From NCBI GenBank assembly GCA_020847615.1, contig JADLBR010000440.1, positions 1-64,000 on the forward strand: a stretch of 64,000 nt of DNA. Reading direction: 5' to 3'. Positions 37,878 to 53,887 of the stretch are shown in pieces. The stretch's first letter is position 1, and each line of letters opens with the position of its first letter. The position numbers and the translations under genes were made by a program. The DNA comes from Verrucomicrobiia bacterium. GTDB taxonomy: Bacteria; Verrucomicrobiota; Verrucomicrobiia; JADLBR01. The notes below the pieces were generated by a model. It was not told the origin of the DNA. It did not search any database and saw only the letters and a list, made by a program, of their open reading frames with translations.

Positions 37878-37980
37878 CACACCGATCCTTAGCAGACCCC
37901 GTGCCAAGATGGGACAGCGCCGAAGACTTTTTTTGGCGATGCGCCCCAAGTCCCCTCGGTCCCTCGCAACCCCACCCTCG

Positions 37981-39129
37981 TCATGGCCCCCCAGGCACCC
38001 GGCCCTGTGCCTCATTGAGCCGATGCGTCGCCATCCGCGGAAGCACATACCTCGCGAACAGCTCGCATTCCTCCAGATGCGGGTACCCGCTGAGAATGAA
38101 CGCCCGGATACCCATGCCGATGTAGCGATTCAATTTCGCCAAGACCTGATCCGGATCGCCAACGATGGCGCTGCCGCAGCCGCTGCGCGCCAGGCCAATC
38201 CCCGACCAGAGGCGCTCCTCGATGTACAGGTCGTCTCCGGCCCCCGCCCGAAGGGCGTCTTGGCGCAAAACCCCGAGGCTCATGCTATCCTGCGAACGGT
38301 CCCTGATGGCCCGCCCGGCGACGCGGTCCAGCCTGGATATGAGCCTCTCTGCCGCCACCCGGGCCGCCGCCTCGGTCTCGCGCACAATCACATGCACCCG
38401 GAGGCCAAAATCGATCACCCGCCCGTGCGTCGCGGCCAGGCCGCTGACCCCCCTCATCGTCTCCAGCAGCCGGTCCTCTGTCTCGGGCCACATCAGAAAG
38501 ACATCGCAAAACTCCGCGCACAGCGCCTGTGCCGCCGGCGATATGCCACCGAAATACAGCAGGGGTCCCCCATTGCCCTGAAGAGGCTTGCCCGGGCCAC
38601 GATCCGGAAGATCGAAGTCGTAGAACCGGCCCTTCCATTCGAGCGGACCCTCGCCGTCCCAGATGGCCTTGAGGATACGGATCACCTCCCCGCTCCGCGC
38701 ATAGCGGTCCTCGTTGCTCTCCTTCCTGCCCGGAAGATCTGACGAAATGATGTTGATCGCCAACCGCCCCTTCGCCATGTGGTCCACCGTCGCGATGGCG
38801 CGCGCCAGCATCGGGGGCCAGACCTCGCCCATCCGCAGCGCGATCAGCTGGTTGATCCGTCGCGTCTGCGGCGCCATCGCCGCGGCGAACGCCATCGCGT
38901 CCTGCCCAGGAACCCATGCCGAGGGCAACAGGATGTTCTGATACCCCAGCGCGTCGGCCCGCCTCACGATCGACCCGCAATGCTCGTAGCTGCTGCGAAA
39001 ACGCTCCTCCGGCACACCCAGGAACTCGCAGTCGTCGGCACACAGCGCCGAGAACCACGCCACCTCTACCGCCCGGTCGGCGCTTCGGATCCGAACGCCG
39101 GGCGCCACCGCCGCCATCGTCTGTTCCAT
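37981..39129 (-). CDS. ssuD: LLM-class flavin-dependent monooxygenase, alkanesulfonate monooxygenase (SsuD)-like
   Basis: The 382 residues match the length of SsuD, which uses FMNH2 and oxygen to release sulfite from alkanesulfonates. Family blocks are clear: LLPSAWVPGQDAMAFAAAM, INIISSDLPGRKE, YFGGISPAAQ, HVIVRETEAAA, LWSGIGLARSG and AFILSGYPHLEE. No SsuE reductase or Ssu transporter lies nearby, so the exact substrate is open. The ATG at 39129 is preferred because the upstream part of the frame is low-complexity. It stands alone, 103 bp upstream of the ATP-grasp gene and divergent from the antiporter. Confidence 0.85.
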   Translation of the reverse strand: MEQTMAAVAPGVRIRSADRAVEVAWFSALCADDCEFLGVPEERFRSSYEHCGSIVRRADALGYQNILLPSAWVPGQDAMAFAAAMAPQTRRINQLIALRMGEVWPPMLARAIATVDHMAKGRLAINIISSDLPGRKESNEDRYARSGEVIRILKAIWDGEGPLEWKGRFYDFDLPDRGPGKPLQGNGGPLLYFGGISPAAQALCAEFCDVFLMWPETEDRLLETMRGVSGLAATHGRVIDFGLRVHVIVRETEAAARVAAERLISRLDRVAGRAIRDRSQDSMSLGVLRQDALRAGAGDDLYIEERLWSGIGLARSGCGSAIVGDPDQVLAKLNRYIGMGIRAFILSGYPHLEECELFARYVLPRMATHRLNEAQGRVPGGP

Positions 39130-39335: not shown

Positions 39336-40604
39336 ATGCTGGACACATTTGAGCTCTCAGCGCACTTCTTCTTGCAGTTGGCCGTCATTCTCCTCGCCTG
39401 TCGCCTCGCCGGATGGGTCGCCCGACTGATCCATCAGCCACAGGTCATCGGCGAGATGATCGCCGGCGTGGCACTGGGGCCATCGATCTTCGGACTTTGG
39501 TTGCCCGAGGCACAGGCATGGCTATTCCCCGAGCCATCAAAGCCCATCCTCTTTGCAGTGAGCCAAGTCGGGCTGGCGCTCTACATGTTTCTCGTCGGGG
39601 TGGAGTTCCAGGGTGACCTGCTTCGCCAGAGCGGCAGAAGCGCCCTGGCGGTTTCCGTCGCTGGAATGGCCGCGCCTTTCGTCGCCGGAGTCGCCATCGC
39701 CGCGTGGTTGGTTCGCGAGCCCGGCATGTTCGGTCCGCAGGTCCACTTGTTCGAGGCGACACTATTCCTCGGCGCATCGATGGCGATCACCGCATTCCCC
39801 ATGCTGGCCCGGATCATTTACGAGCGCGGCCTGACCGGAACCGCGCTCGGGACGCTCACGCTGGCCGCCGGCGCGATCGATGACGCGGCGGCGTGGTGCG
39901 TGCTCGCGATCGTGCTCGCCAGCCTGGATCACTCCTGGCCGGTCGCGGCGAAAGCGATTGGCGGGGGCGTCGCGTACGCGGTCGTCGTGCTGTCCGTGGG
40001 CCGCCGCCTGCTGCGCCCGCTCGGCGCGCGCGCCGAGCGCGCGGGCTCGATTCCCCAGCCCGTGCTGGTCCTCACGCTCGCGCTCCTGATGCTCGGGGCC
40101 TGGTGCACGGACATCCTGGGAATCTACGCCGTCTTCGGCGCATTCGTCCTGGGCGTCGCCATGCCCCGCGGTTTCTTTGCGGAAACCCTGCGGCGCATGC
40201 TCGGGCCGCTCACCGTGGCGCTACTGCTGCCCCTTTTCTTCACTTTCTCGGGCCTCAACACGCGGCTTGATCTCCTCGCCGACCCCCGATCATGGCTCAT
40301 CGCCCTCGTCGTCCTCCTGGCCGCCTGCCTGGCGAAGGGTGGGGCATGTTGGTGGGCGGCCCGGTGCCTTGGCGAGGAACAGCGCACCGCCCTCGCCGTC
40401 GGCGCGCTCATGAATGCGCGCGGCCTCATGGAACTCATCATCCTGAACATCGGGCTCCAGCGCGGCATCATCTCCCATGCCCTCTTCTCCATCTTCGTCG
40501 TCATGGCCATCGCCACCACGCTCTTGGCCACGCCGGTCTTCGAATGGGTTTACGGGAGCCGCGCACGGGCCACGGGCGAACTCGGCCCAGAGCGCAGGGA
40601 CTGA
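39336..40604 (+). CDS. Cation:proton antiporter, CPA2 family
   Basis: A 422-residue inner-membrane protein with about twelve hydrophobic segments. Features of the Na+/H+ exchanger fold include VIGEMIAGVALGPSIFG in the second helix, ITAFPMLARIIYERGL, the AGAIDDAAAW motif whose two Asp residues carry ions, and GALMNARGLMELIILNIGL near the end. It exchanges Na+ or K+ for protons; the ion cannot be told. No C-terminal TrkA-N/RCK domain is attached. It is convergent with the ligase gene, 10 bp apart. Confidence 0.9.
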   Translation: MLDTFELSAHFFLQLAVILLACRLAGWVARLIHQPQVIGEMIAGVALGPSIFGLWLPEAQAWLFPEPSKPILFAVSQVGLALYMFLVGVEFQGDLLRQSGRSALAVSVAGMAAPFVAGVAIAAWLVREPGMFGPQVHLFEATLFLGASMAITAFPMLARIIYERGLTGTALGTLTLAAGAIDDAAAWCVLAIVLASLDHSWPVAAKAIGGGVAYAVVVLSVGRRLLRPLGARAERAGSIPQPVLVLTLALLMLGAWCTDILGIYAVFGAFVLGVAMPRGFFAETLRRMLGPLTVALLLPLFFTFSGLNTRLDLLADPRSWLIALVVLLAACLAKGGACWWAARCLGEEQRTALAVGALMNARGLMELIILNIGLQRGIISHALFSIFVVMAIATTLLATPVFEWVYGSRARATGELGPERRD

Positions 40605-40614
40605 GGCCACCTCG

Positions 40615-41853
40615 TCACCGCACCACGTGCCACCGCCGCGCCTTCATCTCGAACCGGGGCAACGTCCCCGCGGGAACCACCTCGACCGGCATCCTCATCT
40701 CGAAAGCCGTCCTCAGGCGCTTCTGCAACTCGGCCACGGTTCCCGGGTCCCCTGCCGTCTCGATGCGGATCGTGACCTCCGGGAGAGCGCGCGAGCGATC
40801 CACCTCCACCCGATACTCCGTCACGCCCCCGACCGAGCGGACGACGGCATCGATCGCGCTCGGGTAGACATTGACGCCGCGCACGATCAGCATGTCGTCG
40901 ACGCGCCCGAGTATGCCGCCCTCGAGCGCGAAAGCGCGCGCGTCCTCACCCGGAATCGCAACGGGCCGCACGAGGTCGCCCGTGCGATAGCGCAGGAGCG
41001 GCGAGCCCACCCGCTTCAGCGTCGTCAAGACCAGTTCCCCCGTCTCCCCGGGGGATACCGCCACGGTCGAATCCGGACGCACCACCTCACACAGATAGGC
41101 CCCGTGCATCAGGCGCAGGCGATTGGGTCGCCCCGGATCCTGGTAGCTCACCGGCCCCACCTCCGTCATCCCATGGTGATCAAACACTCGCGCCCTGGGC
41201 CATGCGGCCTCAAGCCGCGCGCGTACCTCCGGCACGCTCCCACCGGGCTCCCCGGCGACCATCAGGCGCTCGACCCCGCACTCACCCAGAGGCAACCCCT
41301 CGGCCTCTGCGACCTCCGCGAGGCGCATCGCGTATGTGGGCGTACAACAGAGGTGCGCGATCGGGTGCGTGAGCAGTGCGCGGACCCGATCAGCCGAACT
41401 CATGCCGCCCCCCGGATACGCCCGGATGCCCAACTGGCACGCCGCCTCGAAAGATGTCCAGAAACCCAGGAATGGGCCGAAGGAAAACGCGAACAGCGCC
41501 CCCTCCCCCGCCCGGGCGCCCGCCGCGCACCAGACCTCCTTCCAGTTCTCGACCAGGCCCTGCCAGCTCTCCGGGTCATCCATCCACACCAGCGGCCGAC
41601 CGCCGGTCCCGCTGGTCTGGTGAACCCGCGTGTAGCGCTCCAAAGGGTAAGTGAGCGCACTGCCATAGGGCGGATTCGCCTCCTGGTCCCGCGACAGCTC
41701 CTCCTTGGTCGTGAATGGCATCCGCCCGACATAATCCTCCAGGCTCTCGAATCCACCCTCACCGCCACAGGAGGCGAGCTTCCGCCGATAGAAAACATTG
41801 CCTCCGACGATGCGGGCGATCAGCCGATTCAGCGCATCCAGTTGCTCATCCAC
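40615..41853 (-). CDS. Phenylacetate-CoA ligase-like adenylate-forming enzyme
   Basis: A 412-residue AMP-forming ligase of the PaaK group, which activates aryl acids as acyl-AMP and then the CoA thioester. The P-loop-like HQTSGTGGRPLVW, the HHGMTEVGP block, the YRTGDL motif, and GRVDDMLIVRGVNVYP in the C-terminal lid are all present. Given a linked chorismate-lyase-like gene, a hydroxybenzoate is a reasonable substrate, but this is inferred. It is the last gene of the minus-strand cluster, 68 bp after the permease. Confidence 0.85.
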   Translation of the reverse strand: MDEQLDALNRLIARIVGGNVFYRRKLASCGGEGGFESLEDYVGRMPFTTKEELSRDQEANPPYGSALTYPLERYTRVHQTSGTGGRPLVWMDDPESWQGLVENWKEVWCAAGARAGEGALFAFSFGPFLGFWTSFEAACQLGIRAYPGGGMSSADRVRALLTHPIAHLCCTPTYAMRLAEVAEAEGLPLGECGVERLMVAGEPGGSVPEVRARLEAAWPRARVFDHHGMTEVGPVSYQDPGRPNRLRLMHGAYLCEVVRPDSTVAVSPGETGELVLTTLKRVGSPLLRYRTGDLVRPVAIPGEDARAFALEGGILGRVDDMLIVRGVNVYPSAIDAVVRSVGGVTEYRVEVDRSRALPEVTIRIETAGDPGTVAELQKRLRTAFEMRMPVEVVPAGTLPRFEMKARRWHVVR

Positions 41854-41921
41854 GAACTATCTAACCTCCCCGCTCTCCGCTCGCCACCCACGCCACGCGA
41901 CACCCCGCCCCACACCTCGGG

Positions 41922-42431
41922 TCAACGGCTCTCCATGTGCGTCCGATGCGCCGCCGGCGCCGACGGACCGGGCTTGTACAGCGTGACCAGGCACCCGCCC
42001 AAGGCAGCCAGCACGATGCCCAGAAAAAAGGGCCAAGGGATCGCCGCGAAACCTCCCTTCGGCGGATGGAGCGCCGTCGCCACGACCGCATTCACGATGG
42101 GCGCGCCCGCAAAGACGATCGACATCACGACGCTCGGCGTTCCCTTCGCCCCAAAGGCCAGCAGCACCCCAAACGCCCCGATCGAACCAAGGGTCCCCGC
42201 CACGATGGACAGCCAGACTCCTTTCGCCGGAAAACTCCAATCGGAACCCGTCATCTTTAGCAGGATCAGCGGAGCCAGCACCGCCGTGATGAAATACGCG
42301 ATGCCCACGAACAGGAATGCCTTGTAGCGGCCAAACTGCGGGTCCTGCATCGCCACCTGCCCGCTGTGCAGGAAAACCCCATAGAGCCCCCACGTGGCCA
42401 CGGTCAGCAATGCGAAGAGAAGCCAGTTCAT
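41922..42431 (-). CDS. Small DMT/EamA-like membrane protein
   Basis: A 169-residue protein with about five membrane segments (MNWLLFALLTVATWGLYGVF, LFVGIAYFITAVLAPLILL, LSIVAGTLGSIGAFGVLLAF, SIVFAGAPIVNAVVA, PFFLGIVLAALGGCLVTLY). It resembles half of a drug/metabolite transporter, so it may work as a dimer. A role in exporting the product of the surrounding cluster is possible but inferred. The start is set at the first Met before the first helix, 14 bp after the thioesterase stop. Confidence 0.7.
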   Translation of the reverse strand: MNWLLFALLTVATWGLYGVFLHSGQVAMQDPQFGRYKAFLFVGIAYFITAVLAPLILLKMTGSDWSFPAKGVWLSIVAGTLGSIGAFGVLLAFGAKGTPSVVMSIVFAGAPIVNAVVATALHPPKGGFAAIPWPFFLGIVLAALGGCLVTLYKPGPSAPAAHRTHMESR

Positions 42432-42445
42432 GGATCTGTGTGAAT

Positions 42446-42934
42446 TCACGTTCTCATCGAGATGGAGTTCTGCCGCGCGGCCTCCAGCTTGGCCCGCAAC
42501 GAATCGGGTATTGGGATGCCCTGCATCCGACCGGTCTCCGCATCGAGTCGGACGCATATTGTCACGACGGATCCCGACGCCACCAGCCCATCGCCCCCGG
42601 GACCCGCCAGCCAGAAGTTGTGATGGTAGCGCACGGTCTTCGCGCGAATCTCATGGAGCGACACGCGGATGCGCACGCGGTCCTCAAACCGGATTGGCCC
42701 CCAGAAATCGCAGGACGCGTGCAGGCGTGGCCAGCCCAGCCCACCCAGCCCCTCGCGGGCGTGCACCGTCTCCCCCAGCGAACGAAAGAACGCGTGCTCC
42801 GCCTCCTCCATGTACCGGTAATAGGTGGCGAAATGCACGATTCCGGCCATGTCGGTGTCCGCGAACTGCACCCGGCGCTCGTACTCAAAGCAGAAGGGCT
42901 CTCCTTCCGCCGCATCTCTCCTGGACCTAGGCAT
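42446..42934 (-). CDS. Hotdog-fold acyl-CoA thioesterase, 4-hydroxybenzoyl-CoA thioesterase family
   Basis: A 162-residue single hotdog domain. VQFADTDMAGIVHFATYYR carries the family signature, with catalytic Asp28, and is followed by the helix YMEEAEHAFF. It hydrolyses an acyl-CoA to acid plus CoA. The type enzyme acts on 4-hydroxybenzoyl-CoA, but many relatives use other acyl groups. Its place between a chorismate-lyase-like gene and a PaaK-like ligase gene makes an aromatic acyl-CoA plausible. It starts 61 bp after the lyase gene ends. Confidence 0.88.
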   Translation of the reverse strand: MPRSRRDAAEGEPFCFEYERRVQFADTDMAGIVHFATYYRYMEEAEHAFFRSLGETVHAREGLGGLGWPRLHASCDFWGPIRFEDRVRIRVSLHEIRAKTVRYHHNFWLAGPGGDGLVASGSVVTICVRLDAETGRMQGIPIPDSLRAKLEAARQNSISMRT

Positions 42935-42995
42935 GGGTAAAACTCAGACTCCAATTTGAAACGGAAACCGCCATTTTCAACGCGCTTGCCAGCCC

Positions 42996-43556
42996 TCAGC
43001 CATCGTCCGGCAGGGGTGCCATGATCTCGAATATCGTCGCGAGCGGCGCCTCGCCCTCATCCCACAGCTGGTTGTACCGCCCGTAGCATACTCCCGATGG
43101 CAGGCCGGCGTAGGGGAAAGCCGCGTCATATCGGAAAAAGCCGATGGGCCGACTGATCGTGTACCTCCCCCCGCGAATGAGTATGCGCCCAAAGGGCTCC
43201 TGTCCGCCTCGGATCACATCGGCCTCCGTGGCCGTGAATCGCCCCAGGTAGATCTCGATCACGCCGTAGACCACCGGACGACCCAATCGTGCGGTGAACA
43301 GCAGCACCTCCCGCAGGTATTCGCCCGTCCCCGTCTCGACGGCCCGCAGCACATCCAATCGCAACGTGTCCCGATGGAACGCCTCCAGGGTCGGTGTCAT
43401 CTCCCGCTGGTGCACTAGCAGGTCCCGATACGGCTGCGGCACCCAGCCCCCCTCCAGCCAATGCAGCCGATCCAGATCGATCCTCCCGCCACCCATGAAG
43501 TCCCGGAGCGTGGCCGGGATCTCCGCGTGATCGATCTGGCATGCCGCGCTCATCAT
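42996..43556 (-). CDS. UbiC-like chorismate lyase (4-hydroxybenzoate synthase) homologue
   Basis: A 186-residue protein that aligns by eye with E. coli UbiC. MTPTLEAF (53-60) matches the DSMT helix. YLREVLLFTARLGRPVVYG (80-98) matches the strand with the substrate-binding Arg76 (here Arg82). PFGR (121-124) matches PLGR, and IFEI near the end supplies a Glu (177) at the place of catalytic Glu155. Such enzymes turn chorismate into 4-hydroxybenzoate and pyruvate. No other ubiquinone genes are near, so it likely feeds the linked ligase and reductase genes. The start is one of two adjacent ATGs, 16 bp after the radical SAM gene. Confidence 0.72.
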   Translation of the reverse strand: MMSAACQIDHAEIPATLRDFMGGGRIDLDRLHWLEGGWVPQPYRDLLVHQREMTPTLEAFHRDTLRLDVLRAVETGTGEYLREVLLFTARLGRPVVYGVIEIYLGRFTATEADVIRGGQEPFGRILIRGGRYTISRPIGFFRYDAAFPYAGLPSGVCYGRYNQLWDEGEAPLATIFEIMAPLPDDG

Positions 43557-43572
43557 TCCGATGCCCCCGTCA

Positions 43573-44913
43573 TCACACGAGCTTGTCGGTCTTGTGCTGC
43601 GGGAGAAAGAAGTCGTGCAGCAGGTTGTCCACGCAGAGCAGGCCGTCCCGGGAGAGGACAATGTCTCCACCCTCGATCGACAAGAGACCCTCCGCCCCGA
43701 GATCGCGAAGGATCCCGCCGAATCGCCCCAGGACGTCCGCACCGAACTTCGCAAGGAAATAGCCGGAATCGACGCGCCCCAGCTTCATCTGCAGGATGAA
43801 CTCGCGGATCATGCGCTCCTCCGGCGTCGTGCGAAAAGCGCGCTGCAGCGGCTGGTCACCCCGGCGCACCGCGGCGATGTATGGGGCGATCTCCGTCAGA
43901 TTCTGGTAGTGCACGCCCGCCGCATGCGAGAACGAGGCGACCCCGACCCCGAGCAGGTCTGCCCCGCGCCACAGCTCGTCGCGGTAAATGAAACGCGTGC
44001 GCCCAGGATTGAGCACGGCCGTGTAGCCGCTGCCGATGTGATAGCCCCCTGCCTCCAGCGCCGCGAACGCCTCCTTGACCCATCTTCGCTTTGTCTGCCA
44101 GTCCGCCACGGGCGCCTCGAGCTTGCCGGACGCGCGCATCTCCTTGTAGATGGTCGTATTGTACGGGATCTCCATCTGGTAGATCGTCACGCTGTCCGGG
44201 CGCAGCGCCAGCGTCCGCTCGATGTTCCGTTGCCAGTTGGCCTCGGTCTCGCCCAGCATGCCCGCGATCAGGTCGATGTTGATCTGCTCGAATCCCTCGT
44301 GCCTCGCCCTTTCGTACGCGCGATAGATCTCCGCGGAGTGATGCGCCCGCCCATTCAGCTCCAGGACGGCATCGTCGAAATTCTCGATCCCCAGGCTCAG
44401 CCGCGTGACGCCGATCCGCTTGATCGCCTCGACCTTTCCCGGCCCCAGGGTTCCCGGCTCGCACTCGAACGCCACCTCCGCGGCGGAATCCCAAGAGAGG
44501 ATCCCCTTCATCCGGTCGGCGAGCTCGCCCAGCTGGTTGGCGGAGAGATAGGATGGCGTGCCCCCGCCGAAGTAGACGAAGTGGGGCTTCCGGCCCTCGA
44601 TCAGGGGCATCCGCGCCAGGCGCACCAATTCCTCCACCGTGCAATCCAGATAATCCTGGATATCCCGCGCGCTCTTGTCGGTGTAGACACGAAAATAGCA
44701 AAAGTGGCATCGCTTTCGGCAGAACGGGATGTGGTGATACAACCCGAGCGGCGTATCCTCGCGCGCGGGACGCGACCGGAGCGCCTCGGCCACGGCCGGG
44801 ATCTGCTCCTCGGACCAGAATGAGAATGGTGGATAGTTTGAGACAAAGTAGTTGCCCGCGCGGGTCGCCCTCGGCCCGGCATGCGATGGGATGGGATGTG
44901 CGTCCGCGCTCAT
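43573..44913 (-). CDS. HemN/HemW-like radical SAM enzyme
   Basis: A 446-residue radical SAM protein. The cluster-binding CRKRCHFC (Cys65, 69, 72) has the C-x3-C-x2-C pattern, followed by YFGGGTPSYL, the SAM-binding glycine motif. The C-terminal part (ERMIREFILQMKLGRVD onwards) matches the HemN_C domain of coproporphyrinogen-oxidase-like proteins. No haem genes lie nearby. HemN-like enzymes in biosynthetic clusters often do methylation, cyclopropanation or other radical chemistry, so it may tailor the cluster's product. The ATG overlaps the propeller lipoprotein's TGA (ATGA at 44910-44913), which fixes the start. Confidence 0.87.
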   Translation of the reverse strand: MSADAHPIPSHAGPRATRAGNYFVSNYPPFSFWSEEQIPAVAEALRSRPAREDTPLGLYHHIPFCRKRCHFCYFRVYTDKSARDIQDYLDCTVEELVRLARMPLIEGRKPHFVYFGGGTPSYLSANQLGELADRMKGILSWDSAAEVAFECEPGTLGPGKVEAIKRIGVTRLSLGIENFDDAVLELNGRAHHSAEIYRAYERARHEGFEQINIDLIAGMLGETEANWQRNIERTLALRPDSVTIYQMEIPYNTTIYKEMRASGKLEAPVADWQTKRRWVKEAFAALEAGGYHIGSGYTAVLNPGRTRFIYRDELWRGADLLGVGVASFSHAAGVHYQNLTEIAPYIAAVRRGDQPLQRAFRTTPEERMIREFILQMKLGRVDSGYFLAKFGADVLGRFGGILRDLGAEGLLSIEGGDIVLSRDGLLCVDNLLHDFFLPQHKTDKLV

Positions 44914-46130
44914 GTTCGAGATGCCTCCGAGGAGCGCAGTGCGTACAGCACGCCACCCTCGGTCCCCACCACCAGGGTCCCCTTCGCGTAGGCCGGCGAC
45001 GCGGAGGACAACGACGAGCCGAGGTCCATCTGCCACAGGATCTCACCCCTGCCGTGCCCCACCGCGTACAGGCGGCCATCGGACGAACCGAACACCACCG
45101 CATCGCTAAACACCACCGGCGCGCCATCGATCCGCCCGCCGGCCCGAAACTTCCACGCCGCCTTACCCGTGACCCGGTCGATGGCGTGCATGTGCTTGTC
45201 CCGCGAGCCGATGTAGACCCGGGCCCCGTCCACCGCCGGCGAACCGAAGAACGGGAATGCGCGATCCTCGTAGGTCCATGCGATCGCTCCCCCATCGATG
45301 CGCACCGCCATCACCTGATGGGCGTAGCTCCCAAAGTAGCCGAACAGCCCAAGGGTGGCGACTGATGAAGGTATCTGCGCCGGCGTCCGTATCTTGGCGA
45401 CGCCCGAGCCCGTCTCCAATTCGACCACGTGCACCCGCGCATCACACCCCCCAAACACCGCGAATCTCCCATCGACCACCGCCGCCGATCCGTTCAGCGG
45501 CTCATCCGTGGCATACGACCACAGCAGTCGCGCGTCCCGGGCGCGAAGACAGCGCGCCACGCCATCATAGCCGTTGATGAGAACCCGTTCTTCGCCCGTC
45601 CTGGGATCCGAGAAGACCGTAGGGCCGGCGCTCACCTTCTTGGCCGTCGGGAAGTGCCATCGCTGGTCCCCCGTGGCACGATCAAGCGCGCGCACCTCGC
45701 CGTCCTCGCAGCCCACGAAAAGTGCGTCGCGCCCGACCGCCGGCGTCCCCCCGACCGCCCCGCCAAGCGACCGCCGCCAGAGCTCACGCCCATCGGCCAG
45801 CGCAAGCGCAAAGACCGTGCCCGCCCGGCAGCCCACGTAGACGACGTCACCGGCGATCGCCGCGCCCGCGTCAATCCGCGATCCGGCCTCAAGCGTCCAT
45901 GCAACCACCGGATCACGGGGCACCGCGTCAGCGACCGCGCCCCGCAGCTGTGGACCCCCGCCGAACATGGGCCATGCCGACACCAGGGCCGGGCGCCCCG
46001 CACCCGCCGCCCCCTTCGATGCCGGCCCGCACCCCGCAGCAAGAAGTCCCAGGCCACACCACACCGCGGCCGCCGAGACGCTCCCGGCAATTCGAATGAC
46101 CGGCGGTTTACGGGTGTGGCTCATTTGCAA
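44910..46130 (-). CDS. PQQ-like beta-propeller lipoprotein
   Basis: A 406-residue exported lipoprotein: a signal peptide ending in the lipobox LLAAGC (lipid-bearing Cys34), then seven or so beta-propeller blades with the AxDxxTGxxxW pattern (ALDRATGDQRWHF, AIDRVTGKAAWKF). Such propellers rarely bind PQQ itself and often act in outer-membrane assembly or as binding scaffolds. It is co-transcribed with the enzymes on either side: 9 bp after the alcohol dehydrogenase and overlapping the radical SAM gene by 4 bases. That is unusual company for a BamB-like protein. Confidence 0.85.
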   Translation of the reverse strand: MQMSHTRKPPVIRIAGSVSAAAVWCGLGLLAAGCGPASKGAAGAGRPALVSAWPMFGGGPQLRGAVADAVPRDPVVAWTLEAGSRIDAGAAIAGDVVYVGCRAGTVFALALADGRELWRRSLGGAVGGTPAVGRDALFVGCEDGEVRALDRATGDQRWHFPTAKKVSAGPTVFSDPRTGEERVLINGYDGVARCLRARDARLLWSYATDEPLNGSAAVVDGRFAVFGGCDARVHVVELETGSGVAKIRTPAQIPSSVATLGLFGYFGSYAHQVMAVRIDGGAIAWTYEDRAFPFFGSPAVDGARVYIGSRDKHMHAIDRVTGKAAWKFRAGGRIDGAPVVFSDAVVFGSSDGRLYAVGHGRGEILWQMDLGSSLSSASPAYAKGTLVVGTEGGVLYALRSSEASRT

Positions 46131-46139
46131 ATATACGTG

Positions 46140-47288
46140 TCAAGACGAAGCCAATGCCTCGCAATAGAGTTCGACAAAATCGTCCGTTTGCAAGGCCCGG
46201 GGATTGAATTTGGCGGTCCACTGGCGAGACGCCTCCCCGGCCATGGCCGCGATATCCTCCTCCCGCACCCCGAACGCCGCCAGACGCTCCAGTCCCGCCG
46301 CACGAACGAGTCCCTCGAGCCACTCCTCGAGCCTGTCGCACGAACCGGCCGGAAGAAGTTTCGCCAACTGATCGTATATGGTTCCAGCGCCGGGGTCCCG
46401 CCGATTGAACCGGACGACGCCAGGCAACATCCGCGCCACCGCGCAACCGTGCGTCACGCCATACCGGGCCGTCAGCGGATTTGCGCTGGCGTGCGCCGCG
46501 CCGAGCATGCTGTTCTCGATGGCCAGCCCCGAGAATGCGGCCCCCAGCTGCATCCGCAGCCTATGCTCCATCGTCGCCTCGCCCGCGATCACCGCGCCAA
46601 CCGCGCCGGCCAGGTACCGAAAAGCCTCCAGCGAATAGACCGAGGAGAGCGGATTTCTCCTATTGCACACCGCCGACTCCACCGCGTGCGCGATCGCGTC
46701 CAGGCCCGTGAGCACCGCCACCCGGGGCGGCTGCGACACCGTCAGTTCCGGGTCCAGGACCGCGATGCGCGCGAGCGCCTGAGGCGCACCACAGGCCATC
46801 TTCTCGTGCGTATCGTCCCGGCTCACCACGGCATACGACTGGCACTCGCTGCCGGTGCCCGCCGTCGTCGGCACGGCAACGAGGGGTAAAAATGGTCGCC
46901 TCGCCCTGCCATAACCCCGGTGATCGCGCATCGCGCCGCCCTCGGCGAGAAGGAAGAGGCAGCCCTTGGCCGTGTCCATGCTGCTGCCACCGCCGAGGCC
47001 AATCAGGCAATCGGCGCCCCGGCCAACGGCAAAATCCCGGCACGCCGCAACGTCGGACTCGGTGGGGTTCTCCTGAACCGCATCATAGATCGCGCACGGG
47101 ATCCCGGCATTCTCGAAGGCCGCCACCGCGCGCCCCGGGTGACCCGCGGCCACGATGCCGCCATCCGTGACGATCAGCGGGCGTCGCCCGCCCAATTCCC
47201 CCACGAGAATCGGCAGTTGCTCGATTGACCCGCAGCCACAAATCAGGCGGGGGGAGGGCCGTGTCTCAAATCTCGCGCTGCCTTCCAT
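46140..47288 (-). CDS. Iron-containing (group III) alcohol dehydrogenase
   Basis: A 382-residue NAD(P)-dependent enzyme that interconverts an aldehyde and an alcohol. GLGGGSSMDTAK binds the cofactor phosphates and AVPTTAGTGSE follows. Metal ligands fit D and H of GLDAIAHAVE, H of GAAHASANP and H of YGVTHG. The His that follows the third ligand by four residues in FucO-type enzymes is Asn here (AHASAN). Next to an acyl-CoA-reductase-like gene it would reduce the aldehyde made there. The ATG at 47288 with GGAGG upstream is preferred; an in-frame ATG at 47321 lies 4 bp after the upstream gene. Confidence 0.88.
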   Translation of the reverse strand: MEGSARFETRPSPRLICGCGSIEQLPILVGELGGRRPLIVTDGGIVAAGHPGRAVAAFENAGIPCAIYDAVQENPTESDVAACRDFAVGRGADCLIGLGGGSSMDTAKGCLFLLAEGGAMRDHRGYGRARRPFLPLVAVPTTAGTGSECQSYAVVSRDDTHEKMACGAPQALARIAVLDPELTVSQPPRVAVLTGLDAIAHAVESAVCNRRNPLSSVYSLEAFRYLAGAVGAVIAGEATMEHRLRMQLGAAFSGLAIENSMLGAAHASANPLTARYGVTHGCAVARMLPGVVRFNRRDPGAGTIYDQLAKLLPAGSCDRLEEWLEGLVRAAGLERLAAFGVREEDIAAMAGEASRQWTAKFNPRALQTDDFVELYCEALASS

Positions 47289-47325
47289 GGCGATGTCGCC
47301 TCCGCGCCCGGACCGCCCCATCCCC

Positions 47326-48777
47326 TCAGGCCGCAGCGCGCCCCAGCGCGCCGAGGTCGCCCTGGAGTGCCCTCCGCTGAAAGAGAAACTCGAACAGGTT
47401 GCCCTCGTGCGGCTGCTCCCACTGGACGCGGTTGGTCGGATACGCCCCGATATTGAGGCGGTCGATGGACGGGCAGTTCACGAGATCGCGAATCCATTCT
47501 GCGTCTCCCGTCAGCGCCGAGACCACCAGGGTCGGGCCGAGGGACGGCAACATCCGCCCGACCGGCATCTCCACCAGGCTCGCGTAGGGGAACATGAACT
47601 CGGTGTTCGCCAGCGGGTGTCCCGGATCATCGCAGACCACGAGCGTCGGCCGCAGGAATGTCTGGCCGTGCGCCTCGACCAACCGGGGCCCCTTGCGATG
47701 TCGCGCCGTCACATCCTCCGCGCCGGGTTCCTGCAAATGCGCCTCGATCCGCGCGTCGATGGCCCGCGCCTGTTCTGGGTTCGCGAATCCGCACAGCAGG
47801 GCCTCCGGATGGTCGCGCGCCATCGGTTCAATCGCCGCGAGCCGCCGCGCCAAGGCATCGGCTATCTCGTCGCGCTGACCCGGCACGAACAGGGCCGAGG
47901 CGTTGATGCAGCTCCGCCCGCCGTTCGCGCTGATCGACTCCACCAGCACGCCGAGGTGATCCGCCCACCGATCCAGCCAATCCGCCCCTAGCAGCACCTT
48001 GCTGCGCCCCGTGCCGTGCACCTGTATGCCCTCAAACTGCTCGTAGCGCCGCACGGTCGCGTCGCTGCCGAAGGCAATGCCTCGGCCACAGGCGAGCAGG
48101 AGCGCGTCCCCCCCCTCGTGCGTCGTCGGATAGAACCCCAGGGCCTCGCCCGGAAACCCGGCCGCGATCAGGGCCTGGATCAGACGGTAGGGGGTCAGCG
48201 GGTCCTCCCGACCGGGCTTCAGCAGCACCGGTACCTTGAAAACCGTCGCGGGCAACCACAGCGAATTCACGCCGGGCGAGTTGCTCGGCAGGGCCACGCC
48301 GAGGCTCTCCGCCGCGGGATAGTAGTTTACCGCCAACCCGTCCCGCATCGTCACGCCCGTGTCGAAGATTTCCAGTGGCAAGCCGCGCGTCAGCCCGGCG
48401 ATGACCGCGGGCATGTTCGCCAAGGCATCGCCCACCTTGCGCATGTTCGCCCGGCACAGCGTGTGCGGCAGTCCCGTCAGCGCCGACAGGGCCCGCACGT
48501 AGTCCTCCGGCCCTTGCTGGTCGCCGCCATCCCCCCACGGCAATGCGCCCCCCACCTCCAGCCCCGCCGCCCGCTGGCAATGCCCGGCCAGCGCCCCCGC
48601 ACTGTGCCGTCGCAATGCCGCGCGCGCCGACGCGATCCCCATCAGGTCCCGCCGGATCAGGCCAGGATTCGCGAGGCTCACCTCAAGGCGCACCGCCCCC
48701 GCATCCAGCTTGAGCCGATCCATGCTCCGATAGGGTCGGCCCAGCCTCAGGATGGGCAGGTGTATGGTCTCTGGCAT
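47326..48777 (-). CDS. Aldehyde-dehydrogenase-superfamily acyl-CoA reductase-like enzyme (LuxC-like)
   Basis: A 483-residue ALDH-fold protein. LPSNSPGVNSLWLPATVF and VLLKPGREDP give the NAD(P)-binding core, ISANGGRSCINAS holds catalytic Cys290, and NTEFMFPYASLVE matches the ALDH C-terminal signature. About 160 extra N-terminal residues resemble the helical front of LuxC-type acyl-CoA reductases. Next to a LuxE-like ligase and an alcohol dehydrogenase, it probably reduces an activated acid to the aldehyde. The start is fixed by GGGAGG at 48785-48790 and lies 38 bp after the ligase gene. Confidence 0.82.
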   Translation of the reverse strand: MPETIHLPILRLGRPYRSMDRLKLDAGAVRLEVSLANPGLIRRDLMGIASARAALRRHSAGALAGHCQRAAGLEVGGALPWGDGGDQQGPEDYVRALSALTGLPHTLCRANMRKVGDALANMPAVIAGLTRGLPLEIFDTGVTMRDGLAVNYYPAAESLGVALPSNSPGVNSLWLPATVFKVPVLLKPGREDPLTPYRLIQALIAAGFPGEALGFYPTTHEGGDALLLACGRGIAFGSDATVRRYEQFEGIQVHGTGRSKVLLGADWLDRWADHLGVLVESISANGGRSCINASALFVPGQRDEIADALARRLAAIEPMARDHPEALLCGFANPEQARAIDARIEAHLQEPGAEDVTARHRKGPRLVEAHGQTFLRPTLVVCDDPGHPLANTEFMFPYASLVEMPVGRMLPSLGPTLVVSALTGDAEWIRDLVNCPSIDRLNIGAYPTNRVQWEQPHEGNLFEFLFQRRALQGDLGALGRAAA

Positions 48778-48784
48778 CGATTCG

Positions 48785-48790
48785 CCTCCC
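48785..48790 (-). promoter_or_regulatory. Ribosome-binding site of the ALDH-fold gene
   Basis: GGGAGG on the minus strand, 7 bases before ATG 48777. It excludes a much longer in-frame reading that would overlap the upstream ligase. Confidence 0.7.
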
Positions 48791-48815
48791 TCGCCGCGCG
48801 TCACGTCAGGCCGCC

Positions 48816-49913
48816 TCAGTACACGCCCTCCACCACGGGCCTGGACCCGGACTGGAACGGGCGCACGTCCCCCACCCCATCCCACGCGAACTCGTCGCAC
48901 GCCGGCCTCCGGATCGCCTCGTCGCGCTCCAGAAATCTTGGCATGAAGAACTCCCTCGTCAGCGTGGTCAACTCCACGCGCCCGTACTCGCCGTAGGCCA
49001 CCTCGTCGTCCGGATCCTTCGGATCCACGACCCGCAACACCGCCCTCGGCTGCGGCGCATAATACGTCAGGCTGAAGTTGTCCTCGGGCGTCAGCCGCCG
49101 GCTGATCGCCAGGCCCATCAGCGTGTTCCCGTACGTCGGCGCGAACCGGACGCTGCCCTCCAAGACCTCCTCGATCAAAAAGCGGACGTACTGCGGGGTC
49201 ATCGTCGTCCCGCCGCAGAACACCGCCCTGATCCCGGCTTGGACCAGGGATATCCTCTCCGCCAGCGCCTCGAGCAGTTTCGGCGTCGTGAACAGGCACT
49301 GGATCTCCCGGTGCCGGAGGATCGTCGTCGCCTGCTCGACGACGTGATCCTGGTACAGGCGCACCATCTTCAGTTCGCCCATCGTAATGAGTTTCTTCAC
49401 CCACCTCGGGTCCAGGTCGATGAAATAGCAAGAGCCGCCCCGGATGTTCGCCAGGTGCTCGATCGCCAACCGCAACCGCCTCGGCCCCGTCGGGCCCATC
49501 ATCAGCCAGTGCCCGCCCTTCGGGAAGAAATCGTCCCCGTAATGCTCGCTGAACTCGGTGTAGTCCGTCCGGAAATCCTCCCAGCCAATCCGCTGCTTGG
49601 GCATCCCCGTCGTCCCACCCGTCTCAAAAATGTTGTAGGGGCGACCGCGGTAGGCGGCGGGAACAAACCGCGCCGGGTCCTCGCGTCGAAGCACCTCGTC
49701 GTCAAAGTGATCAAAGCGCCGCATGTCCGCGAACGCCCGCACCTTCTCGCGCGGATCCCACCCCGCCGACCTCGCCCAGTCCAGCCAATAGGGACAGCCC
49801 GTCCCGGGCGAAAAGTGCCACTCCACCATGGCCCGCACGTGCTCGTCGAGCCGCGCCCGGGCCCCCTCGATCCTGGATTCCATATTCATCGCCGCACCGG
49901 ATTCCATCGCCAC
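48816..49913 (-). CDS. Adenylate-forming ligase, LuxE/PaaK-like
   Basis: A 365-residue acid-activating enzyme. FETGGTTGMPKQRIGW is the phosphate-binding loop of the ANL superfamily. FTTPKLLEAL, VFCGGTTMT and FAPTYGNTLMGLA follow the order of the LuxE/PaaK core, and the C-terminal lid is short. It would form an acyl-AMP and pass the acyl group to CoA or a protein thiol, supplying the reductase encoded 38 bp downstream. The start is uncertain: four in-frame Met codons lie in the first 11, with a repeated ATGGAATCC. It follows a beta-propeller gene by 29 bp. Confidence 0.82.
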   Translation of the reverse strand: MAMESGAAMNMESRIEGARARLDEHVRAMVEWHFSPGTGCPYWLDWARSAGWDPREKVRAFADMRRFDHFDDEVLRREDPARFVPAAYRGRPYNIFETGGTTGMPKQRIGWEDFRTDYTEFSEHYGDDFFPKGGHWLMMGPTGPRRLRLAIEHLANIRGGSCYFIDLDPRWVKKLITMGELKMVRLYQDHVVEQATTILRHREIQCLFTTPKLLEALAERISLVQAGIRAVFCGGTTMTPQYVRFLIEEVLEGSVRFAPTYGNTLMGLAISRRLTPEDNFSLTYYAPQPRAVLRVVDPKDPDDEVAYGEYGRVELTTLTREFFMPRFLERDEAIRRPACDEFAWDGVGDVRPFQSGSRPVVEGVY

Positions 49914-49942
49914 ATGTCACAACCGAGAGGCGGGGCCAGCGC

Positions 49943-51490
49943 TCACCGGGTCTTGGCGACCGCGAACAGGTGCGTCTGCGTGCAAACGTACAGCACGCCG
50001 TTCGCCACCACCGGGCTGCTATAGATCGGCGCCCCAAACTCGATCGAGGCCAGGGGCTTCTTCTCGCGCCCCGCCGCCAAGACGATCAACTCCCCATCCT
50101 CGTCCCCGAGGAACACCTTCCCGTCGGCGACCAGCGTCGAGGACCAGATGCGGCTCTCCGTCGGATGCACCCACAAGGACTTGCCGGTCTCGGCATCCAG
50201 GCAGTGGATGTCCCCGTCGTACTCCGCGACGTACACAAGCCCGTCGTGGACGCTCGCGGTCGAGATCGAGCGCCCGATCTCGCGGTTGGTCCAGAGCGCC
50301 TTGCCCGACACGTCGCCCCTGCTGTCGGCGGCTATGCAGCTGAACATCCCGACGCCATCCCCGTGCTCTGGATCTTGGCCGATGCCCACGTACACCCGGC
50401 CCTTGTCAAAAACCGCGGTCGCGATGATCTCGCTCGGCCCATCGAAGGTCGCGTACTTGATCGGCTGACCGCCCTTCGCGCGATATTCTGGCGGGTTGCA
50501 GTCGCAGCGCCACACCTCTTCAAGGGTGCCCAGGCCATCCGCGCCCTTCACCGGATCGGGCTTGAACCCGTAGCAGAACCCGTCGCCGCCGCCCCAGAAC
50601 AGCATCGGTTGCCCGCCCACCTCGCCCAGGGACGGCGAACTCCAGCTCGCGTGCAGCACGCGCTCGGTCACGCCCGAGGCCTCCTCGCCAACCAACTGTC
50701 CGGTCGCCTTGTCCACGGCGATCAGGGCCGGCGCGAAAGGGGCCGGAACATTCTTGTGCGACCAGTCCACGCCATTCGATGTCGCCACGTAAACACGGCC
50801 CCCGTGCACGAGCGGAAAACAGCTCGACACATTGTGGGGGAACGTCCCCACCTCCTTGCGCATGTCCATCACCCACACGATGTCCGCGTGCCGGTCCCCC
50901 AGTTCCACCGGCTTTCCGTCGGCAGACATGTAAGTCGCCTCATCCTTGAACGGACCGTCGTTGCCATTGGCAAGACCGTTCACGTCCAGGCAGAGCAGCT
51001 CGCCGCGATTGGTGACCAGCCAGGCCCGGTCCCCCTCCACCGTCGGCGCCGAGCAGAGCCCCACGTATTCCCAGTCGCTGACCTTGCCCGCCCCGAGCTT
51101 GGGGACGATCAGTTGCCACAGGAAGGTCCCATCCTTCTCGCTGAAACACATCAGGATCCCGCGGTCACCCTTCTGCCGCGGGTCGCGCGGTGACTCATTG
51201 TTCGTGCCCACGTACACGCGCCCGCCTGCCACGGTGGGCGTGCCGTACGATTGCGATCCGAGCTTCGCCACCCACCTGACGTTCTTGGTGGTCGCGATGT
51301 CGATCTCTTCGGTCTTGCCGGATGGCTTGCCCGGCACCACTTCCAGCGGGAGGTCTCTCGCGTCGGCCACCATGTTGCGCGAGGGCGTGCCCCCCCACAT
51401 CGGCCAGTCGCCGCCCGCGCGGGCGAAAGATGGGCCATGGAGCGCGCAGGCCGCCGCGGCGCCCGCCATCAGCATTCTCGTCGTCTTCAT
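49943..51490 (-). CDS. Secreted PQQ-like beta-propeller protein
   Basis: A 515-residue protein with a signal peptide (MKTTRMLMAGAAAACALHGPSF) and repeated propeller blades (CLDAETGKSLWVHP, AVDKATGQLVGEE, VYVGTNNES). The first blade, DWPMWGGTPSRNM, resembles the start of planctomycete/verrucomicrobial PQQ-like proteins. There are no haem motifs. It may be a periplasmic binding or scaffolding protein. Its ATG overlaps the TGA of the next propeller gene upstream (51487-51490). Confidence 0.85.
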   Translation of the reverse strand: MKTTRMLMAGAAAACALHGPSFARAGGDWPMWGGTPSRNMVADARDLPLEVVPGKPSGKTEEIDIATTKNVRWVAKLGSQSYGTPTVAGGRVYVGTNNESPRDPRQKGDRGILMCFSEKDGTFLWQLIVPKLGAGKVSDWEYVGLCSAPTVEGDRAWLVTNRGELLCLDVNGLANGNDGPFKDEATYMSADGKPVELGDRHADIVWVMDMRKEVGTFPHNVSSCFPLVHGGRVYVATSNGVDWSHKNVPAPFAPALIAVDKATGQLVGEEASGVTERVLHASWSSPSLGEVGGQPMLFWGGGDGFCYGFKPDPVKGADGLGTLEEVWRCDCNPPEYRAKGGQPIKYATFDGPSEIIATAVFDKGRVYVGIGQDPEHGDGVGMFSCIAADSRGDVSGKALWTNREIGRSISTASVHDGLVYVAEYDGDIHCLDAETGKSLWVHPTESRIWSSTLVADGKVFLGDEDGELIVLAAGREKKPLASIEFGAPIYSSPVVANGVLYVCTQTHLFAVAKTR

Positions 51491-53754
51491 TGTCTGTTCG
51501 GTTTGAGGCTCAGGTTGTCGATGTAGACTCTCATCAGGCTCTGTGGCGAAAACGCGAATACCCCCGGCGCGCCATGCCGATGCACCTCGGGCACCGCCAC
51601 CTCGATGGTCCATCCGGGCGGCTCCGCCTCCGATCGCGGCCACGCCTTGGCCCGCACCACCCCGCCGCCGTCGCCCTTGGTCTCCACGTGCGTCTTGAGC
51701 CGATACCACGCATTGGGCTCGATCTTGAAAGGCACCGACCGCTTCAGGCGCTCGTGGTTGCTGGAGACCTCCAGGACCCGCCAGTTGCCGGCGAGCGTGA
51801 TCAGATACCTCTGGTTGACCAGCCCCACCGTCGACATCGTGCGCCGATTGCCATCGGTCATCACGTCCGCCTCAAGCACGTAGCCGCTCATCTCGGGGCG
51901 CCCGAAGAAATTCATCGTTCTCTGGAACAGGATGTCATCCAGCCTGTTCGCGATCACCTTGCTGCCGTCGCGCTCGAGCACCCACCACTTCACGCGCGCC
52001 CCCAACCACGGCAGCGGCGGAAAAGCCACCGCCTCCCCGGCGTCATTCTTCTGGTCGAGGGCGTACGACTCCATGTCCTCCGAATACACCGGCCCCGCCA
52101 CGACCCGCCCCCGCACCGTTCCCGCGAGTCCGCCCACCTGCGCCTTGAAGGCCCCGGCCGAAAGCCGCGCGCCCGCGTCGGCCACCAGCCGGTTGTCCCC
52201 TTCGAACTTTGCGTCCACCCGGCTCTTCACCTTGGCCGTCGGCGGCACCCACACCTCCCAGTCGGCCTTGTCAAACTTCGTGGCGCGCCGACCCGCCGCA
52301 TCCACGCCCCAGACGGTGAACGACTGCGATTGCCCCGGCGCCAGCGCGAACTCCGCGGGCACGATCTGCAGCGCGACCGCTTCACCCGCCGCGGCCCCCG
52401 GTGCAGCCGGCTTTCCATCGCCCTTGAATCGCCCCTCCTTGCTGCCGAAACAGTGCATCCCATCATCCGTCACCAGGAACACCTTTCCCGCGTAGATCGC
52501 CGGCGCGCCGATGCATGGCACGCCCAACTCGGTGCGGCATAGCCTCTCGGCGCCGCTCTCGCCCGGGCGCAATATGTTCAGGCTCCCGTCCCGCATGGGC
52601 ACGTAGAGTTTTCCGTCGCCCCAGGTGGGCGACGCGTGCAGCTGGTCTGGCCCCAGCTTGATCTGCCACAGCGTCTTCCCGCTCTTCGCGTCGGCGCACA
52701 GCAGGCTCCCCGTGTCCACCGTCGTGTATATGCGATCATCCTTGAGCACCGGAGAACTGCTGAACGCACAGTGCTCGGTATTCCGCCACACCTCCGCGTC
52801 CGCACCCAGGACCAGCGGCAGATCGCCCTTTGGGTACTCCGTCGGAATGCGCAGGCACACCAGGCGCCCGGATGTCGATTCGTCCAGATTCTCCTTCCCG
52901 TGCACCGCGATCAACTTGTCCTTGCCGTACGGGATCACTCCCGAATTGACGCCGCCATTCGATAGCCGGAAGCGCCACACCGGCTGGCCCGTCCGCGCGT
53001 TCACGCACACCACGTTGCCGCATCCCGTCCCCGCATAGAAGACCCGGTGGTCCCCCAGATCCGCGAAGACCGGCGTGGCGAACGAACTGTCCACCGGCTG
53101 CTCGCCGGGGGTCGAGTACCACACCAGTTCCCCCGTCCGCTTGTCGAACGCGTAGAAGCGGTCGCGCGCGGGACCGTCCGTCCCCCAGTTCGCCGTCACC
53201 CCGTGCGCGATAACCAGTTCCCCGTCGATTCCGGGGGCGCCCGTTCGCCCATTGGGAAAGGTCAGCCACCCGAACTCCTCCATCATCGAGCGCTCCCAGA
53301 GCCTCTCCCCGTCACGAGAGAACCCCATCAGCAGGCCGTTGCTGGATAGCACGTAGACGTTCCCGGTCTCCGCATCGACCGCCGGGGCACCGATCGCGTA
53401 CCGCGTGTACACGTTGTCGCTAAGGTAATCCCGGAACCGGTGCTCCCAGAGCTTCTTGCCGCTCGCCGCATCGACGCAGAGCAGCGCCTCCGTCACGTCC
53501 TCCGTCTTCCCGTAGAAACCAAACACGTACAGTCGCCCGTCCGCCGCCACGGGCGTGCCGCCCCCGCGCACCGCGTAGCTCCACAGATGGTTGGCTCCCC
53601 CAACCGCCCAGCTCTCGGGCAGCCCCTCTTCCAACGACACGCCCGCCTGCTGCGGCCCGCGCCAGGAAAGCCACCCCTCCGCGCCGGCGGCCTTCCCCAC
53701 ACACAGCGGCCCCGCGGCCAGCGCGCACGCCAAGACCCTCGCTCCTAAACGCAT
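51487..53754 (-). CDS. Secreted PQQ-like beta-propeller with C-terminal lectin-like module
   Basis: A 755-residue protein with a signal peptide (MRLGARVLACALAAGPLCVG). The first 430 residues or so are propeller blades (CVDAASGKKLWEHRF, CVNARTGQPVWRF, CADAKSGKTLWQIKL). A linker with Ig-like strands (LAPGQSQSFTVWGVDAAGRR) leads to a last domain with EDMESYAL and VYIDNLSLKPN, like a concanavalin/jelly-roll domain of surface proteins. It is the first gene of the long minus-strand run that ends at 40615. Role unknown; ligand binding at the surface is likely. Confidence 0.85.
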   Translation of the reverse strand: MRLGARVLACALAAGPLCVGKAAGAEGWLSWRGPQQAGVSLEEGLPESWAVGGANHLWSYAVRGGGTPVAADGRLYVFGFYGKTEDVTEALLCVDAASGKKLWEHRFRDYLSDNVYTRYAIGAPAVDAETGNVYVLSSNGLLMGFSRDGERLWERSMMEEFGWLTFPNGRTGAPGIDGELVIAHGVTANWGTDGPARDRFYAFDKRTGELVWYSTPGEQPVDSSFATPVFADLGDHRVFYAGTGCGNVVCVNARTGQPVWRFRLSNGGVNSGVIPYGKDKLIAVHGKENLDESTSGRLVCLRIPTEYPKGDLPLVLGADAEVWRNTEHCAFSSSPVLKDDRIYTTVDTGSLLCADAKSGKTLWQIKLGPDQLHASPTWGDGKLYVPMRDGSLNILRPGESGAERLCRTELGVPCIGAPAIYAGKVFLVTDDGMHCFGSKEGRFKGDGKPAAPGAAAGEAVALQIVPAEFALAPGQSQSFTVWGVDAAGRRATKFDKADWEVWVPPTAKVKSRVDAKFEGDNRLVADAGARLSAGAFKAQVGGLAGTVRGRVVAGPVYSEDMESYALDQKNDAGEAVAFPPLPWLGARVKWWVLERDGSKVIANRLDDILFQRTMNFFGRPEMSGYVLEADVMTDGNRRTMSTVGLVNQRYLITLAGNWRVLEVSSNHERLKRSVPFKIEPNAWYRLKTHVETKGDGGGVVRAKAWPRSEAEPPGWTIEVAVPEVHRHGAPGVFAFSPQSLMRVYIDNLSLKPNRQ

Positions 53755-53831
53755 GCCGAAGAGAATAGGCGCCCCCCACAAAATTCAAATTGCTCATGAA
53801 ACATATTAGCATGTCTTTTCCGCCCGATCTT

Positions 53832-53859
53832 TTGACAAGGCCGGGTAATCCAATACTTT
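53832..53859 (+). promoter_or_regulatory. Candidate promoter for the 407-aa propeller gene
   Basis: TTGACA (53832-53837), a 16-base spacer and TACTTT (53854-53859) lie 28 bases before the ATG at 53888. They sit in the AT-richer divergent gap between two propeller genes. Confidence 0.5.
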
Positions 53860-53887
53860 TCCGCCGCCAATGCGCCCGGACCATCGT

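Follow-up and report, generated by a model that had tools for sequence, protein, structure and literature searches.

A conserved operon with a predicted route from chorismate to an aryl aldehyde and alcohol in Verrucomicrobiota and three other phyla

The EhpF and EhpG proteins of the D-alanylgriseoluteic acid pathway in Pantoea agglomerans comprise an adenylating enzyme and an adjacent partner with the aldehyde dehydrogenase (ALDH) fold, and the pathway in which they act is derived from chorismate. A two-component reductase likewise converts an amino-hydroxybenzoate to its aldehyde in the grixazone pathway of Streptomyces griseus, whose precursor is not chorismate-derived; the characterised pair GriC and GriD adenylates 3-amino-4-hydroxybenzoate and reduces it to the aldehyde (PMC10179220, citing Suzuki et al. 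2007). Chorismate lyase of the UbiC type was nearly confined to Proteobacteria in a 2014 survey (PMC3914697). Here we describe an operon of eleven minus-strand genes (positions 40615-53754) that holds relatives of EhpF and EhpG together with a UbiC-like protein. It lies in a stretch of 64,000 nucleotides (the window; positions 1-64,000 of contig JADLBR010000440.1) from a Verrucomicrobiia bacterium whose draft assembly, GCA_020847615.1, is broken into 592 contigs. The most likely role of this operon is the synthesis of a hydroxybenzoate-type aromatic compound from chorismate, with the capacity to reduce the acid group to an aldehyde and an alcohol.

Reductase module and operon extent

Pfam, NCBIfam, PDB sequences and Foldseek served to verify the gene families. 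The adenylate-forming enzyme P0009 (48816-49913, 365 amino acids) matches the EhpF structures 3l2k and 3hgu by phmmer (E 4e-51) over residues 23-365, up to its last residue, and shares 33-37% identity with homologues from plasmid-borne clusters, those for phenazines among them. EhpF is its sole PDB match, and on this ground we reject the view that the ligase and its ALDH-fold neighbour are a LuxE/LuxC (fatty aldehyde) pair. That neighbour (47326-48777, start assigned from the ribosome-binding site) aligns over nearly its full length with the protein in the EhpG position of Pantoea (26% identity, E 1e-38) and has its catalytic cysteine in GGRSC, a motif that reads GGRSC or SGRGC in 13 of 13 orthologues. 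Adjacent EhpF/EhpG-like pairs also occur in phenazine clusters on Pantoea and Escherichia coli plasmids and on a Streptomyces plasmid. The two genes are therefore best read as a two-component aryl carboxylic acid reductase of the EhpF/EhpG (GriC/GriD) type, the likeness to GriC/GriD being one of function rather than of direct sequence comparison. As such a pair works through an acyl-adenylate, the aldehyde step would probably need no coenzyme A (CoA) thioester. The next gene (46140-47321) encodes an iron-type alcohol dehydrogenase (Fe-ADH; Pfam Fe-ADH, E 1e-44) in which the Asp/His metal-ligand positions are visible.

A first-pass annotation of the window had described nine closely spaced minus-strand open reading frames (ORFs) at 40615-49913. 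All nine are in place and co-directional, with intergenic gaps of -4 to 68 bp, but they are not the full set. Two genes for exported beta-propeller proteins resembling pyrroloquinoline quinone (PQQ) enzymes lie upstream: P0010 (49943-51490, 515 amino acids), with a 29 bp gap to the EhpF-like gene, and a protein of about 755 amino acids (51487-53754; Pfam PQQ_2; start codon picked by eye) whose gene overlaps that of P0010 by 4 bp. The order propeller, propeller, EhpF-like, ALDH, Fe-ADH is kept in relatives. Orthologues of P0010 (50-66% identical) lie upstream of the EhpF-like gene, and a counterpart of 51487-53754 stands directly 5' of the next propeller gene in loci L014, L019, L021, L023, L027, L031, L052 and L130-L133. 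From this conserved order and spacing we extend the operon through both genes, 51487-53754 being its probable first. A scan of 40400-54000 gave no sigma-70-type promoter-like site, and terminator-like sites were not in excess.

As for the individual proteins, the earlier assignments of the PaaK-like ligase, the drug/metabolite transporter (DMT)-like permease, the thioesterase, the UbiC-like and radical S-adenosylmethionine (SAM) proteins, the propeller lipoprotein, the Fe-ADH and the other adenylate-forming ligase all withstood these searches, as did the statement that the locus holds no polyketide synthase (PKS), fatty acid synthase or ubiquinone gene. The ALDH-fold protein had been taken for an acyl-CoA reductase; its fold is confirmed, but together with the EhpF-like protein it is now read as an EhpF/EhpG pair.

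The UbiC-like protein and the conserved core

The UbiC-like protein P0004 (42996-43556) has no Pfam or NCBIfam match, including PF04345 and PF01947; five of its relatives gave nothing above noise in Pfam, and PF04345 had no match across the whole focal genome. Profile comparison with E. coli UbiC nevertheless gave an hhalign score of 45.9 (E 9e-7), whereas 150 unrelated ORFs used as controls reached at most 21.6 and 60 shuffled sequences at most 20.0; the profile also weakly retrieved the DUF98 structure 2nwi. The AlphaFold model, with a predicted local distance difference test score (pLDDT) of 92.4, returned 2nwi first in Foldseek (E 5e-6) and then chorismate lyase 1fw9 (E 1e-4), at a probability of 1.00. 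Relatives share no more than 26-40% identity with the focal protein. M53, T54, R82, P121, G123, G159, R160 and E177 are invariant in 55 of 55 sequences. The hhalign alignment places R82 on UbiC R76 and matches the MT, PxG and GR motifs; it ends before E177, which was equated with UbiC E155 by eye only. Profile, predicted fold and invariant active-site residues together place P0004 in the chorismate lyase superfamily, in agreement with its initial description as a chorismate lyase-type protein. In a Lentisphaerales bin, a UbiC-like protein and a halogenase-family flavoenzyme form one ORF of 599 amino acids (L068:11312-13111).

The neighbourhood of this gene was followed through the adjacent gene for a HemN-like radical SAM enzyme (43573-44913; Pfam Radical_SAM). 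GTDB genomes were scanned with a HemN-like profile and the best 80 of 579 matches (53-73% identical) were fetched, giving 85 loci with five from whole-genome relatives; the 579 matches are not a count of the family, because the pattern Y[VLH]HIPFCR also fits ordinary HemN and HemW. Neighbour counts are lower bounds, as contig ends cut many of the fetched loci. The relatives are mostly metagenome bins. The loci come from Verrucomicrobiota, Planctomycetota, Acidobacteriota and Lentisphaerota, and in 68 of the 85 the UbiC-like gene adjoins the HemN-like gene, downstream and on the same strand. The first-pass annotation had made its reading depend on a conserved neighbourhood in related genomes, and one is present. 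A BamB-like gene precedes the HemN-like gene in 46 loci, and the genes downstream include those for a flavoenzyme (47 loci), a 4HBT-type thioesterase (31), a glycosyltransferase (29), a PaaK-like ligase (26) and an EamA-like protein (20). The arrangement is far above chance, since the twelve commonest neighbour families occur in 12-86 loci each and the next in 7. These twelve, named by eye or through Pfam, are the cluster genes, one PQQ propeller family and one FtsX permease. In some Acidobacteriota the core, including the PaaK-like ligase and 4HBT enzyme, is present with no UbiC-like gene adjacent. The FtsX-type permease (about 1000 amino acids) lies near the cluster in 18 loci, mostly after the PaaK-like gene (for example L008:14614-17967 and L014:18302-21317), and none stands beside the focal operon. 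In a single relative, genes resembling MqnE and MqnA of the futalosine pathway by eye lie directly upstream of the HemN-like gene (L011:5414-7474); a link to menaquinone synthesis was set aside, being hinted at by this one locus.

The focal cluster itself has neither flavoenzyme nor glycosyltransferase, and loci L015, L019, L027 and L131 are likewise without the flavoenzyme. Homologues of both are encoded elsewhere in the focal genome, the flavoenzyme on contig C10 (73% identical to that of genome G033 and interrupted by the contig end) and the glycosyltransferase on contig C494. All 16 other genomes whose HemN locus has no flavoenzyme also carry a match (36-69% identity) at another place; ten of these matches were fetched, and nearly every one is isolated from other cluster genes. 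Contamination as the source of the C10 copy is thought unlikely, as Opitutales-type genomes with a flavoenzyme-less cluster also have an orphan copy. The G033 flavoenzyme matches Pfam Trp_halogenase; WxWxIP is found in 46 of 48 flavoenzymes and an F-x-x-K-Y-type segment in 33 of 48, motifs that fit, without proving, halogenase-family chemistry.

The reductase module and the HemN/UbiC core appear to be linked. Across 289 evenly sampled genomes of the phylum, EhpF-like (E <= 1e-60) and HemN-like (E <= 1e-80) proteins were each found in 12, and these are the identical 12 genomes, from 10 genera in several families (Fisher test 2e-21, uncorrected for relatedness). Families f5 and f15 each hold both doubly positive and doubly negative genomes, and in 8 of the 11 non-focal double positives the sequence retrieved on either side of the EhpF-like gene does not include the HemN-like gene. 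The association may be less strict than this sample suggests, as HemN-positive genomes such as G033 lie outside it. Phylogenetic analysis of 89 HemN-like proteins puts the focal one, whose nearest rows are Opitutales, in a well supported group of 14, of which 13 have an EhpF-like gene nearby; across the tree this adjacency has switched at least six times.

Proposed pathway and competing readings

The remaining core proteins suggest where ring modification and CoA chemistry might enter. The closest solved relatives of the HemN-like protein are HemN (1olt) and NocN (9p2u). Coproporphyrinogen oxidase HemN has the motif CxxxCxxCxC. The HemN-like proteins carry CxxxCxxC in 85 of 85 cases, as CRKRCHFCYF in 73, including the focal one, and as CxxxCxxC(Y)F or Y in the rest. 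The focal protein missed every NCBIfam cut-off (TIGR00538, 170.5 bits against 324.95), and both motif and score speak against an oxygen-independent coproporphyrinogen oxidase. The PaaK-like aryl/acyl-CoA ligase, encoded by the last operon gene (40615-41853; TIGR02155 E 7e-48, under its cut-off), has 2-hydroxyisobutyryl-CoA synthetase and PaaK as solved relatives; with the YbgC/4HBT-type hot-dog thioesterase (42446-42934; Pfam 4HBT_2, E 4e-13), it goes with a different, more widely kept core part of the pathway and not with the aldehyde step. Between these two lies the gene for a half-size EamA/DMT-like membrane protein (41922-42431), whose EamA match is weak and under the cut-off and whose orthologues (49-73% identical) are encoded downstream of the HemN-like gene. 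A BamB-like PQQ-propeller lipoprotein (44910-46124; Pfam PQQ_2 and Beta-prop_ACSF4) precedes the HemN-like protein, and the P0010 model (pLDDT 78) is also a BamB-like propeller, with BamB, tetrathionate hydrolase and quinoprotein dehydrogenases as closest folds.

Gene order and its conservation, co-occurrence, and family, fold and active-site data are the basis from which we infer the reactions, substrates, step order and product of the following pathway, chorismate and hydroxybenzoate included. The UbiC-like lyase would convert chorismate to a hydroxybenzoate and pyruvate, and the HemN-like enzyme and the Trp-halogenase-family flavoenzyme may modify the ring. The PaaK-like ligase and hot-dog thioesterase could provide an aryl-CoA stage. 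The EhpF/EhpG-type pair would activate the aryl carboxylate with ATP and reduce it to the aldehyde, which the Fe-ADH would interconvert with the alcohol; the glycosyltransferase and EamA-like protein would serve modification and export, and the propeller proteins would act outside the cytoplasm. The sequence of chorismate, aryl acid, aldehyde and alcohol is well supported by genomics as a predicted route. Of the series first proposed, from chorismate through 4-hydroxybenzoate, acyl-CoA and aldehyde to alcohol, the lyase-type protein and the aryl-acid reduction with Fe-ADH are retained, and the acyl-CoA route gives way to the acyl-adenylate of the EhpF/EhpG pair. We lean slightly towards the fuller reading that the operon at 40615-53754, with the off-locus flavoenzyme and glycosyltransferase, makes an exported, modified benzenoid from chorismate. 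Several observations weigh against it: six HemN-positive genomes gave no UbiC-like match, so that some may obtain the aromatic acid from another source; in most HemN-like loci the core has no EhpF-like gene beside it; the PaaK-like ligase has as its closest solved relative an enzyme for an aliphatic acid; ring-specific substrates of the PaaK-like, HemN-like and flavoenzyme families are themselves deduced; and the one same-genus relative examined has no cluster.

The most probable of the alternatives concerns the lyase step. P0004 could be a ligand-binding relative of the UbiC/UTRA fold devoid of lyase activity, with the aromatic acid drawn from another source; GntR/UTRA effector domains share the fold, their Foldseek scores lie close behind chorismate lyase, and some HemN-positive genomes have no detectable UbiC-like gene. 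However, P0004 carries no DNA-binding domain, and the invariance of R82 (at UbiC R76), E177 and the MT, PxG and GR motifs is as expected for an enzyme site, so we consider a non-enzymatic role unlikely. Two separate neighbouring pathways might instead be involved, the propeller, EhpF, EhpG and Fe-ADH genes acting on an unrelated carboxylic acid beside a HemN/UbiC/flavoenzyme module, as either module is found without the other nearby (L132, L133 and most HemN loci). Such a division seems quite improbable given that every EhpF-positive genome (12 of 12), and no other of the 289, carries the HemN-like gene, mostly unlinked.

The same co-occurrence, perfect in these genomes, also counts against the suggestion that the core (HemN-like, UbiC-like, flavoenzyme, 4HBT and PaaK-like) supplies an aryl-CoA starter to an aryl polyene- or flexirubin-like pigment or polyketide pathway elsewhere, the reductase being a side branch. 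The PaaK-like ligase does match flexirubin FlxY, far under the cut-off, halogenase-family flavoenzymes and 4HBT enzymes occur in such pigment clusters, and ketoacyl synthases are present elsewhere in the focal genome. Yet no ketoacyl synthase is among the recurrent families near the HemN-like gene in the 85 loci, and 6 of the 10 focal-genome matches fall in large modular-type PKS ORFs rather than pigment-type sets, which makes a starter-supply role doubtful at best. We rate as highly unlikely a PQQ-independent, quinoprotein-like system in Verrucomicrobiota and neighbouring phyla, in which a chorismate-derived aromatic redox compound of the quinone or benzyl alcohol type would be cofactor or electron partner of the exported propellers. 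The conserved membership of the propeller genes in the operon is the one point that speaks for it, tempered by the general abundance of PQQ-like propellers in these phyla. A PqqC search had no match in the focal genome or in the control genomes, and so says nothing on PQQ biosynthesis.

Beside the operon start, a divergent PQQ-like propeller ORF (53870-55111, plus strand) has no counterpart above 200 bits in relatives and was excluded from the operon. Two minus-strand ORFs at 35354-38048 of the window look by eye like the common pair of an alpha-E protein and a circularly permuted ATP-grasp protein. At least six ORFs of type I PKS size (1240-2989 amino acids) with ketoacyl synthase domains lie on focal-genome contigs C410, C362, C468, C285 and C155, and none of the ketoacyl synthase matches is on the window's contig (C447). 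Polyketide (palmerolide) biosynthetic potential is reported for an Opitutaceae-related ascidian symbiont (PMC8636102).

Comparison with known systems

Limited searches of the open-access literature found no description of this cluster. Aryl polyene, flexirubin and xanthomonadin clusters likewise include an aryl-CoA ligase, a 4HBT enzyme, a halogenase-family flavoenzyme and a glycosyltransferase, but ketoacyl synthase, acyl carrier protein and dehydratase are absent from the recurrent neighbours here; nor do these neighbours hold the ketoacyl synthases and acyl carrier protein that mark aryl polyene and dialkylresorcinol clusters. The HemN-like protein shares the radical SAM core and a weak HemN_C domain with HemN/ChuW and the class C radical SAM methylases (NocN), and differs from coproporphyrinogen oxidase in having CxxxCxxCxF in place of its motif.

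At least 80 genomes carry the cluster, from four phyla of soil and water bacteria that have been little studied, and its product could be a widely made natural product or a cell component in organisms that are abundant but seldom cultured. The pathway offers testable roles for two enzymes that occur together, an orphan HemN-like protein and a halogenase-like flavoenzyme, and would extend chorismate lyase-type chemistry past the proteobacterial ubiquinone pathway. The UbiC-like protein shares fold and active-site motifs with UbiC and with DUF98/Rv2949c-like proteins, but differs from them in matching no Pfam or NCBIfam family and in having no ubiquinone genes alongside. The best reading is that of a widespread, new variant of chorismate-derived aryl-aldehyde biosynthesis. 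Whereas the substrate of the Pantoea EhpF/EhpG pair is a phenazine from phz-type genes, here phz genes are lacking and the homologous pair is accompanied by an Fe-ADH, propeller proteins and a UbiC-like gene.

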